Positions 16,465 through 18,801 of a stretch of 42,238 bases of DNA are shown piece by piece. The position numbers and the translations under genes are program-made. The stretch comes from Patescibacteria group bacterium. Its GTDB lineage: Bacteria > Patescibacteriota > Patescibacteriia > Patescibacteriales > JAQVLT01. Numbering within the stretch: position 1 is the stretch's first letter; the number at the start of each line of letters is the position of its first letter. The notes beneath the pieces are model-generated. The model worked only from the letters and a program-made list of their open reading frames with translations, was not told the DNA's origin and ran no database searches. The DNA lies in contig JAQVLT010000007.1 of the NCBI GenBank assembly GCA_028704015.1, positions 13,632 through 55,869 of the forward strand. Reading direction: 5' to 3'.

Positions 16465-17379
16465 ATGTTTTTACTTTCTTCGGGGAGAATCATAAAATTT
16501 AGTTTTCAGGATATTTTTAGAAATATTTGGCTTTCTATCGTAACTGTTATAATTTTGGCCTTGGCTTTGTTTTCTATAAACATGCTTTTGGTTGTACGCG
16601 TGATTAGTCAAGCGTCCGTGGAAGCAGTAAAGGACAAAATTGATATTAGTGTTTTTGTTAAAGCTGATGCTAGCGAAGAAAAAATTATTAATTTAAAAAA
16701 ACAGTTGGAAAATTTATCTGGCGTAGAAAAAGTTGATTATATTTCCAAAGCTCAAGCATTAGAAGCTTTCAGACAAAAATACCAGAATGACCCGAATATT
16801 ATTCAAGCTCTTCAAGAATTAGGAAACAATCCCTTAACCCCGACTTTAATTGTAAAGCCGGCGGATACCAGCAATTTTGATGTGTTAATTAATGATCTTA
16901 ATAAAATCAACGACGACATTATAGAGTCAAAAGATTTTACCGATCATAAATTAATTTTAGAGCGTATTAACAGTATCACCAATAAAGTAAGCGATGCTGG
17001 CATGATTTTGAGTTTGATTTTTGTGTTTATCAGTGTTTTAGTTATTTATAACGCCGTAAGAGTAGCGATTTATACGCATCGCAAGGAAATTGCAATCATG
17101 AGATTGGTGGGCGCTTCCGCTTCTTTTATCTATATGCCATTTTTGCTTTCCGGTTTGATTTATGCTCTAGTTGGAGTTTTGGCAATAGTGGCTTTATTTT
17201 ATCCTTTTTTAAGCTTGTTACAGCCGTACCTAGAAGCATTCTTCATAGAATACCAGATTAATATTATTCAATATTATAACAGCCATTTTCTGTCTATTTT
17301 TGGCTTACAATTAGCTGGCGCGGCCATGGTTAATATTGTTGCGAGTTATATTGCCGTGAAAAAATACGCAAAAGTTTAG
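16465..17379 (+). CDS. ftsX: cell-division protein FtsX
   Basis: 304 residues with FtsX topology: a short cytoplasmic N-terminus (FSFQDIFRNIW), first membrane helix about 21-46, an extracytoplasmic domain (about 50-170, including VEKVDYISKAQALEAF), then three closely spaced membrane helices in the C-terminal half with the permease segment HRKEIAIMRLVGAS between the second and third. It is the membrane partner of FtsE; its extracellular loop usually contacts a peptidoglycan hydrolase or its activator. It is the last gene of the operon before a short hairpin at 17443. Confidence 0.95.
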   Translation: MFLLSSGRIIKFSFQDIFRNIWLSIVTVIILALALFSINMLLVVRVISQASVEAVKDKIDISVFVKADASEEKIINLKKQLENLSGVEKVDYISKAQALEAFRQKYQNDPNIIQALQELGNNPLTPTLIVKPADTSNFDVLINDLNKINDDIIESKDFTDHKLILERINSITNKVSDAGMILSLIFVFISVLVIYNAVRVAIYTHRKEIAIMRLVGASASFIYMPFLLSGLIYALVGVLAIVALFYPFLSLLQPYLEAFFIEYQINIIQYYNSHFLSIFGLQLAGAAMVNIVASYIAVKKYAKV

Positions 17380-17442
17380 CTTGAAGCTAGAAACTACATG
17401 GCTTTACATTTTTGAATTTATTTATTATTATACTAATAACCG

Positions 17443-17460
17443 CCACCGAAGGTGGTTTTT
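17443..17460 (+). terminator. short candidate terminator after ftsX
   Basis: CCACC-GAA-GGTGG followed by TTTTT. The stem is only 5 bp with a 3-nt loop, so efficiency is uncertain. Confidence 0.45.
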
Positions 17461-17503: not shown

Positions 17504-17660
17504 AAAATTATTATTCCAGGGTCGTCCCTGGCTACGCCCAAGGCGCAGCCGCGGGCAGGCTAACGGTAGGCTTGCCCGCCTTTGGCGGGACTCCAGATTT
17601 TCCTGCCTGCCCTGCCTACCGGACAGGCAGGCGGCAGGCAGGGGTCCTGGCTATCGGGGT
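17504..17660 (+). pseudogene. tRNA-Gln pseudogene with GC-rich hairpin inserts in the D-arm and anticodon loop, truncated in the T-loop
   Basis: Segments line up in order with the intact tRNA-Gln at 17914-17984: AAAATTATTATTCC plus nine bases ending TCGTC (17504-17526), TAACGGTAGG (17561-17570), ACTCCAGATTTT (17590-17601), GGTCCTGGCTATCGGGGT (17643-17660). Between them are extra pieces 17527-17560 and 17571-17589, which are imperfectly complementary and so flank the D-loop as an extended stem. A 41-bp self-complementary piece lies near 17602-17642, inside the anticodon loop. The T-loop is cut after GGGGT and the rest of the tRNA is missing. The homology includes 14 bases upstream of the tRNA, so the flank was duplicated too. 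Confidence 0.75.
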
Positions 17661-17664
17661 AAGT

Positions 17665-17928
17665 ATGCATTATGTTTATATATTAATAAGTAAAGCAAGA
17701 AGTAATTGGTCGTATGTGGGCAGTACATCAAATTTAGAACAACGTTTTTGTGATCATAAGTATGGGAAAGTTAAATCAACTAAAGGTTGTCGTCCATTGT
17801 TGTTGATTTACTCAGAAGAGTTGTTAACCAGAGAGGACGCTTATGCGAGAGAATTATTTTTAAAATCGGGTATAGGCAGAGAAGAGAAAGCAGTTATTAT
17901 TAAAAATTATTATTCCGGGATCGTCTAA
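17665..17928 (+). CDS. GIY-YIG nuclease domain protein ending inside tRNA-Gln
   Basis: 87 residues from ATG 17665. The frame is open further upstream to 17572, but that part only translates GC-rich palindrome and pseudo-tRNA sequence. The single GIY-YIG domain is recognisable by MHYVYIL (GIY-like strand), WSYVGSTSNLEQRFCDHKYG (YIG-like strand plus catalytic-type Arg) and a small C-terminal helix region (REDAYARELFLKSGIGREEK). Size fits the stand-alone UPF0213/YhbQ-like group of structure-specific or homing-type nucleases. The last codons (KNYYSGIV-stop) are supplied by the tRNA-Gln 5' flank and its first 15 bases; the stop TAA is in the D-loop. The gene lies between the damaged and the intact tRNA-Gln copies. 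Its substrate is unknown. Confidence 0.85.
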   Translation: MHYVYILISKARSNWSYVGSTSNLEQRFCDHKYGKVKSTKGCRPLLLIYSEELLTREDAYARELFLKSGIGREEKAVIIKNYYSGIV

Positions 17929-17984
17929 CGGTAGGACTCCAGGTTTTGGTCCTGGCTATCGGGGTTCGAATCCCTGTCCCGGAG
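17914..17984 (+). tRNA. tRNA-Gln (anticodon TTG)
   Basis: 71 nt: acceptor TCCGGGA/TCCCGGA with a G discriminator (typical Gln), D-arm GTC-TAACGGTAG-GAC, anticodon arm CCAGG-TTTTGGT-CCTGG giving TTG (Gln, CAA codon), T-loop TTCGAAT. CCA is not encoded. Its first 15 bases also encode the end of the GIY-YIG protein, and it is followed by a terminator. Confidence 0.96.
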
Positions 17985-17994
17985 CTAAGATAAG

Positions 17995-18021
17995 ATATCG
18001 CTAATTTTAGCGATATTTTTG
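17995..18021 (+). terminator. intrinsic terminator after tRNA-Gln
   Basis: A 9-bp stem ATATCGCTA/TAGCGATAT (17995-18003 with 18008-18016), 4-nt loop, followed by a T-run. Confidence 0.9.
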
Positions 18022-18132: not shown

Positions 18133-18801
18133 ATGACTAAATTTAATATTTTTTCCACCTTGGGTGTTAAAAAAATGAAGAGTAAAAAATCTATTTTATG
18201 GAGCGACGCAACGCTTTATGAGGATTTTAAGTTGATAAAATTTTTAGTTGATAATATTGTTGCGGGAGATAGAGAATATAAAAACATTTGTGTTGAAAAA
18301 ATATTTTTAAATATTCAAAAAAAATCATGGCAAAAAAATTATCCAGTTAGGAGTTTTATCTTTTTAATTTATTATTCTTTTATTGTAGAAATAGCAGATA
18401 TAAAAACAATGCTCAGTTGCCAATCCTTAGAAATTATTTATTATTTGAAATTTGGCGAACAGACTAAGGATAATTTTAAAACAAAAGTAGAAAGGCTTTA
18501 TAACTGTTATTATTCTTTTACTTTTAAGTCTGATACAGCAAATATTATTAGAATTATTAGAAATAACGTGGCCCACACAGGCACCATTGATGGAATTTGG
18601 GGCAAGTATAAATTACATGATCAGGTTTCGATAAATAATTTTTTATCTATTCATAATGAACTAAAAAATATTAGATTGATTGCCTTCTCTTTTAATTTGT
18701 TAATTCAGGACATGGTAATAAGAATATTGGGTTTAAATTTAAAAGATCTTAGCATAAATGGTCTGCAACCATTTAATAACAAATATTTTAAAAATATATA
18801 G
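18133..18801 (+). CDS. uncharacterised helical protein with a HEPN-like RNxxxH motif
   Basis: 222 residues (207 if the second ATG at 18175 is used). No close family is recognised. It is predicted mostly alpha-helical, with no signal peptide and one moderately hydrophobic stretch around 74-90. Residues 139-150 read IRIIRNNVAHTG, with Arg143-Asn144 and His148 in the Rx4H arrangement of HEPN ribonucleases and other HEPN-fold proteins, including Asn after the Arg. The surrounding helix context (LYNCYYSF before, then a helix after) fits a HEPN-type C-terminal core. It stands alone between terminators, just downstream of the tRNA-Gln/GIY-YIG unit, and no antitoxin-like partner is adjacent. HEPN membership rests on one motif. 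Confidence 0.6.
   Translation: MTKFNIFSTLGVKKMKSKKSILWSDATLYEDFKLIKFLVDNIVAGDREYKNICVEKIFLNIQKKSWQKNYPVRSFIFLIYYSFIVEIADIKTMLSCQSLEIIYYLKFGEQTKDNFKTKVERLYNCYYSFTFKSDTANIIRIIRNNVAHTGTIDGIWGKYKLHDQVSINNFLSIHNELKNIRLIAFSFNLLIQDMVIRILGLNLKDLSINGLQPFNNKYFKNI

Follow-up and report, generated by a model that had tools for sequence, protein, structure and literature searches.

A free-standing GIY-YIG nuclease gene between broken and intact tRNA copies recurs in Patescibacteria

SegB of phages T4 and T6 is a free-standing GIY-YIG homing endonuclease of the phage tRNA region. It breaks DNA in that region, promotes its own inheritance, and drives tandem amplification of segB together with the tRNA-Tyr gene by recombination (PMC2988022; PMC13096335). 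The arrangement described here is related to SegB in kind, in that a free-standing GIY-YIG nuclease gene adjoins tRNA genes. However, SegB sits between phage tRNA genes, whereas the genes we report reside in bacterial chromosomes, mostly those of Patescibacteria. Furthermore, the portions of the SegB reports available to us describe no broken copy of the target tRNA flanking the nuclease gene (PMC2988022; PMC13096335), whereas here the target tRNA is partly duplicated. The nuclease at our loci is also a single-domain protein, and the broken tRNA copy has hairpins in its loops.

Several other systems share some of these features. I-TevI and other intron-encoded GIY-YIG homing endonucleases have the same catalytic fold, and with them the invaded target gene likewise stays functional. 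In the window, by contrast, no intron ribozyme was found, and it is a second copy of the tRNA, rather than splicing, that preserves function. Among solved structures, the best profile match is to the UPF0213 or YhbQ-type single-domain GIY-YIG proteins (1zg2, 1ywl), which are of the same size but for which no link to tRNA is recorded in those entries. SLX1, the nearest fold together with UPF0213, is a structure-specific endonuclease that cuts branched DNA; it differs from our protein in being a repair enzyme with extra domains and a partner, SLX4. Short, often paired inverted palindromes beside a small nuclease gene are also characteristic of RAYT REPtrons/REPINs and of CGTC-tagged REPs (PMC3733652). 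In our case, however, the enzyme is a GIY-YIG protein rather than a Y1 tyrosine transposase, and RAYT membership is not met. In the open-access literature we found no report of a broken tRNA, a GIY-YIG gene, and an intact tRNA arranged in this manner in bacteria, and the recurrence of this arrangement points to a selfish element that would be widespread and is apparently undescribed.

The tRNA-Gln locus

The window, which is the whole 42,238-nucleotide stretch of DNA analysed, derives from a 1.08-Mb draft genome in 27 contigs. The upstream neighbour of the locus is ftsX (16465-17379, + strand), recognized by its FtsX domains and the NCBIfam FtsX family, and a terminator-like hairpin follows it (17438-17457, +). 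Next come a broken left copy (17504-17660, +), comprising 5′ flank and tRNA-Gln as far as the T-loop and interrupted by three inserts, and a single-domain GIY-YIG nuclease ORF of 86 amino acids (17668-17928, +). An intact tRNA-Gln with anticodon TTG completes the unit on the same strand. As had been proposed, this right copy is a complete gene, called at 17914-17985 by ARAGORN and at 17914-17984 by Rfam (RF00005, 56 bits), and another terminator-like hairpin lies 3′ of it (17992-18019, +). The GIY-YIG ORF, at about 260 bp, is the sole gene enclosed by the two tRNA-Gln copies, with no integrase gene between them. An Rfam scan of the window detected no group I or group II intron, and the nuclease ORF is stand-alone, as expected of a free-standing homing endonuclease. 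A 222-aa ORF at 18133-18801 adjoins the tRNA and has no Pfam or NCBIfam match.

The original prediction described the left copy as ordered blocks of tRNA-Gln that end in the T-loop, and the alignment bears this out. Four blocks (17504-17525, 17560-17568, 17588-17601, and 17643-17660) match 17903-17965 in order, at 60 of 63 aligned bases, and the homology stops in the T-loop, 7 bases 5′ of the nuclease ATG. The alignment score of 63.4 is far above those of 142 non-Gln tRNAs (at most 23.3) and 500 shuffles (at most 29). Therefore, the objection that the left copy might resemble other tRNAs just as well as tRNA-Gln fails. The proposed 14 bases of upstream flank homology are correct only if the first three bases of the tRNA are included; counted from the ARAGORN start, there are 11. 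Neither ARAGORN nor Rfam calls the left copy as a tRNA, which is expected for a broken copy. On the other side, the nuclease ORF runs into the intact tRNA, such that its final codons overlap the tRNA and translation ends within the D arm, at the TAA of GTC-TAA. The right copy does, therefore, supply the end of the nuclease gene.

One point to correct is the view of the left copy as simply decayed. The gaps between its blocks are hairpin-forming insertions of 34 nucleotides in the D arm (17526-17559, an imperfect palindrome), 19 nucleotides in the D loop (17569-17587, the hairpin CCCGCC-TTT-GGCGGG), and 41 nucleotides in the anticodon loop (17602-17642, a palindrome), none assigned to a strand. 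Inserts 2 and 3 form clear stem-loops, and that of insert 1 is imperfect. When folded as single-stranded DNA, the region carrying the inserts performs far better than its shuffles (z = -3.98). Because other genomes use the same positions, the inserts do not represent random damage. Copies related to the palindrome of insert 3 are present at approximately seven other places in the genome.

The encoded protein matches the GIY-YIG family PF01541 (E 1e-12; 48.7 bits versus a cut-off of 22.6), which satisfies membership in the superfamily. No further domain was found among its 86 residues, and there is no Y1 tyrosine transposase. The catalytic residues are conserved, in that Y, Y, G, R, H, and E are invariant in relatives. 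An AlphaFold2 model has a pLDDT of 96. Its nearest structures according to Foldseek are an SLX1 homologue, UPF0213, and SLX1, all with modest E-values, and the closest solved relatives by profile are UPF0213 proteins (E 4e-17), SLX1, and I-TevI. Narrower assignments were not met. The group I intron-encoded endonuclease family TIGR01453 scored 20.3 bits against a cut-off of 56.05, and the window protein has no similarity to phage homologues (tblastn, 1e-3) that would place it in the SegB family proper. Given that the window protein had no match at 1e-3 in a tblastn search of 50,697 phage records and none in a plasmid collection, no carrier replicon has been identified.

The same genome holds a second tRNA-Gln case that was absent from the original prediction, as were the patterned loop hairpins, the mirror arrangement, and the non-tRNA targets described below. 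On contig C10, a broken 5′ tRNA copy is followed by a GIY-YIG gene for an 84-aa protein and then by an intact tRNA-Gln(CTG). A near-identical 34-base insert occupies the same tRNA-Gln position in the window (17526-17559) and in L003 (1508-1544). Recent duplication of the whole unit does not explain the shared insert, since the nucleases of these loci share only about 36% identity, and this suggests that the broken end was exchanged between the two tRNA-Gln loci of this genome. Overall, four of the five stand-alone GIY-YIG genes in the source genome abut tRNAs, namely those for Asp, Gln(CTG), Val, and Gln(TTG).

Recurrence, targets, and empty sites

The expectation that relatives would carry small GIY-YIG genes flanked by a tRNA at one end and a tRNA fragment at the other proved to be commonly met. 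Our sample of the order comprises 41 genomes and 138 distinct GIY-YIG ORFs, 36 of which terminate within -30 to +15 bases of a tRNA on the same strand. Only about 0.1-0.2 would be expected by chance, assuming approximately 45 tRNA genes per Mb. No tRNA on the opposite strand lies within 800 nucleotides of any of the 138 ORFs. A partial tRNA copy is present upstream in 31 of 35 testable loci of the tRNA class. When the upstream and downstream flanks were compared directly, 55 of 131 loci gave a match versus 5.4 expected from mismatched pairs, and few of the tRNA-flank homologies reach past the tRNA itself. In seven loci the order is mirrored and the intact tRNA lies 2-15 bases 5′ of the nuclease, and a matching copy is found 3′ of the nuclease in five of the six that can be tested. 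The target tRNAs are those for Gln, Glu, Ser, Val, Asp, Lys, Thr, Tyr, Leu, Gly, and Arg, joined by Pro in named genomes. Tandem arrays of the tRNA/nuclease unit also occur, and some loci have several broken copies.

The tRNA pattern was also observed in 7 of 72 cases in a phylum-wide sample skewed to high-scoring domains, where the left copy was found in four by score and in a fifth by eye. The collection of named genomes was scanned with a single protein, L047, because the alignment of tRNA-class nucleases is too divergent for this purpose, and the resulting sample is skewed to the L047 clade. Moranbacteria, Falkowbacteria, Magasanikbacteria, Uhrbacteria, and Howlettbacteria are among the named genomes that show the pattern. 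The relatives in this collection are mostly from Patescibacteria, and by inference the source genome of the window belongs there as well. A related form with the tRNA upstream and two units in tandem is found in the isolate Neolewinella agarilytica. Most of the sequences are from metagenome-assembled genomes, with which one isolate and several long contigs concur. An assembly artefact was considered and can be ruled out because the pattern is seen in an isolate genome, at mid-contig positions, and in many unrelated assemblies.

The nucleases track their targets. In a phylogeny of the 67 nucleases associated with tRNAs, the isotype of the tRNA changes 36 times versus 46.9 times when shuffled, and none of 200 shuffles was as low. 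The tree thus clusters by isotype, and target specificity is carried with the nuclease lineage, as is the case for homing endonucleases. There is, for example, a supported clade of Glu-only nucleases across five genomes. A Leu(CAA) pair and a Lys(TTT) pair each contain one nuclease per orientation, and therefore a lineage can switch orientation yet stay with its tRNA. Because the proteins are short, resolution is lacking at many forks. The class of genomic context likewise tracks the tree (32 changes versus 87.7). The nucleases are under purifying selection, with dN/dS values of 0.06-0.26 wherever synonymous sites are unsaturated.

Empty sites with a single tRNA, whose existence had been anticipated, were found for the tRNA-Gln locus and for two others. 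We examined thirty ftsX loci from the order. The window has 538 bp between ftsX and tRNA-Gln(TTG), whereas in L312 and L322 this tRNA lies 81 and 177 bp after ftsX without a nuclease between. In L323, the distance is 179 bp, and the interval holds a tRNA-Gln fragment with a hairpin and again no nuclease. This fragment is likely to be the relic of an element lost from the ftsX/tRNA-Gln locus. The ancestral order is therefore ftsX and then tRNA-Gln, and the broken copy and the nuclease are later additions. For the other two loci, L058 and L123, the empty counterparts are in congeners. In G035, the counterpart of L058, the same upstream gene directly precedes a lone tRNA-Ser(GGA), and in G014, the counterpart of L123, a single tRNA-Ser(CGA) occupies the corresponding position. 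These comparisons are at the level of the order for the window and of the genus for the other two; they involve different species and provide no strain-level presence or absence. Presence and absence of the nuclease among alleles of one locus, another hallmark of homing endonucleases, is thus seen in this comparison of species.

Hairpins in the broken copies

The 46 broken copies contain 53 inserts, of which 45 are located in loops (19 in the D, 19 in the anticodon, and 7 in the T loop), and most of the inserts are GC-rich hairpins. The homology to the tRNA typically stops right after the arm that carries the last insert. We counted 42 GC-rich hairpins in these copies, compared to 9 in upstream and 14 in downstream sequences of equal length. 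Without the GC requirement the count separated these regions poorly (60 in left copies versus 29 and 45 in the flanks).

One hairpin family, found at tRNAs for Ser, Tyr, and Gly, places two successive hairpins in the T-loop. Among its 11 sequences, 97.9% of cells pair versus approximately 47-51% in slid controls, and the stems covary, with 22 double-sided changes compared to 5.8 in shuffles. By eye, and with no null model, the loops of the paired hairpins are exact or near complements (CATTCG/CGAATG, CATACG/CGTATG, and CAGCCG/CGGCTG). Other families with complementary loops, also recognized by eye, are AGA/TCT at Glu and Pro, AAG/CTT at Pro, and ACAAG/CTTGT at Leu. With a looser label, hairpin type clusters with nuclease clade (7 changes versus 16.5 shuffled). 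The strict CATNCG-pair label exhibits no clustering on the tree (9 changes versus 8.9 shuffled) because imperfect members were probably missed by the pattern.

Possible origins and other genomic contexts

We favor, with a probability of roughly 0.6, the interpretation that these loci are occupied by a free-standing, homing-like GIY-YIG mobile element that uses a tRNA gene as both target and home while one functional copy is kept. The minimal element would be one free-standing GIY-YIG nuclease gene. Most likely, the nuclease would break a particular tRNA gene in an element-free allele, and repair templated by the element-bearing allele and guided by tRNA sequence on both sides would then install the tandem of broken tRNA copy, nuclease, and intact tRNA. 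Where introns rely on splicing, this element would carry or regenerate a complete tRNA beside itself, and consequently its insertion would cost the host nothing. The loop hairpins probably belong to the element rather than reflecting simple decay, and they might serve as a structured end, as a block to re-cutting, or as a translational damper 5′ of the start codon. Thus, the original prediction of a nuclease element that enters tRNA genes and leaves one copy functional is supported, but the term "nuclease-driven" remains an inference because cleavage of the tRNA gene has not been tested. Spread by mobility or repair and any role for the hairpins are likewise inferred. One point speaks against homing, which is that the intact tRNA in an element-bearing allele still resembles the target, and how it escapes self-cutting is unexplained.

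Other explanations account for parts of these data. Non-functional left copies, and several of them at some loci, might be expected if ordinary tandem duplication of a tRNA were followed by decay of one copy, with a GIY-YIG gene in between by chance. We regard such a history as quite improbable, given that tens of loci place the nuclease stop or start at the same distance from the tRNA to within a few bases, that the nucleases cluster by target, and that empty sites lack both the nuclease and the second tRNA copy. Perhaps the broken copy and its hairpins instead form an mRNA structure, either tRNA-like or a hairpin, through which the nuclease or the tRNA downstream is regulated. The hairpins finish near the start codon, the paired hairpins have covarying stems, and phage T4 homing endonucleases including segB hide their ribosome site in RNA hairpins (PMC2988022). 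However, the broken copy is 3′ of the nuclease in the mirror arrangement, and a regulatory leader alone explains neither target clustering nor empty sites, which leaves this proposal with very little support. Duplications of tRNA sequence around foreign DNA typify integrative elements, and the remnant of such an element at a tRNA att site could also be envisioned. We find this scarcely credible, since the copies enclose just the nuclease gene and no integrase, and it is the 5′ portion of the tRNA that is duplicated here, whereas integrases usually duplicate the 3′ portion.

A doubtful but more substantial alternative is that insertion is guided by hairpins. A structure-specific GIY-YIG enzyme like SLX1 would act on DNA hairpins or branched DNA, and the element and its palindromes would enter apical loops. 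Genes for tRNAs would be hit as the commonest hairpins, with tRNA insertions surviving only when accompanied by duplication. This proposal is consistent with the finding that 45 of the 53 inserts occupy a D, anticodon, or T loop, with UPF0213 and SLX1 being the closest solved folds, and with contexts outside of tRNA genes. GIY-YIG ORFs are present inside genes for 16S rRNA (L019, L189), 23S rRNA (L181), and RNase P RNA (L033), where terminal inverted repeats that could form a stem flank the ORF (by score in L019 and L033, by eye in L181 and L189). Moreover, 38 of 90 non-tRNA GIY-YIG genes lie between inverted repeats versus a few expected, and these repeats are mostly REP-like, many being of the CGTC REP type. 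It is because of these rRNA, RNase P RNA, and REP contexts that hairpin-guided insertion stays possible. In contrast, the tight clades of nucleases that share a target tRNA suggest recognition of sequence, and the preference for loops is no proof of structure recognition because tRNA loop sequences are also among the most conserved motifs.

It is tempting to speculate further that the GIY-YIG genes of Patescibacteria and other phyla constitute one class of hairpin-seeking mobile elements, although we hold this only tentatively and think it has a real but minority chance of being correct. A single-domain, SLX1-like enzyme would insert its own gene and non-autonomous palindromes into apical loops, be they tRNA arms, rRNA or RNase P RNA hairpins, or REP palindromes, and in tRNA genes it would act with the paired hairpins that have complementary loops. 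The same enzyme would be the missing mobiliser of CGTC-type REPs, which Di Nocera and colleagues reported in 2013 to be without a dedicated transposase (PMC3733652). The link to inverted CGTC REPs would provide those repeats with a candidate enzyme that is directly testable.

Patescibacteria commonly carry stand-alone GIY-YIG genes, which are usually annotated merely as nucleases. If those discussed here are tRNA-homing elements, then they are among the smallest selfish elements known, and they have solved the problem of invading an essential gene with a spare copy instead of splicing. The same interpretation, if true, would account for many broken tRNAs and wrong gene ends in Patescibacteria genomes. 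Nucleases specific to single tRNA genes could also serve as tools.

Some additional observations concern the non-tRNA contexts. Inverted REP-like palindromes (GTCATTCCCGC...GCGGGAAT and variants) flank the GIY-YIG genes of L028, L029, L030, L035, L042, L051, and others, and also those of L068, L075, L120, L121, and L127. The termini GCACCTTTTAAGC...GCTTAAAAGGTGC, or one of these ends, surround the ORF at unrelated sites in L018, L019, L023, L054, and L070, and L189 is similar. In L065 and L155, a GIY-YIG ORF with inverted repeats apparently, as judged by eye, splits the 5′ end of a gene for a RAYT-type-like transposase. Finally, the GIY-YIG ORF of L109 is located 5′ of a gene whose product has an MKILVTGG-like start, and the first codons of this gene are repeated upstream of the nuclease. 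As far as can be read from the DNA, L109 may follow the same logic of duplication at a protein gene that is seen at the tRNA loci.
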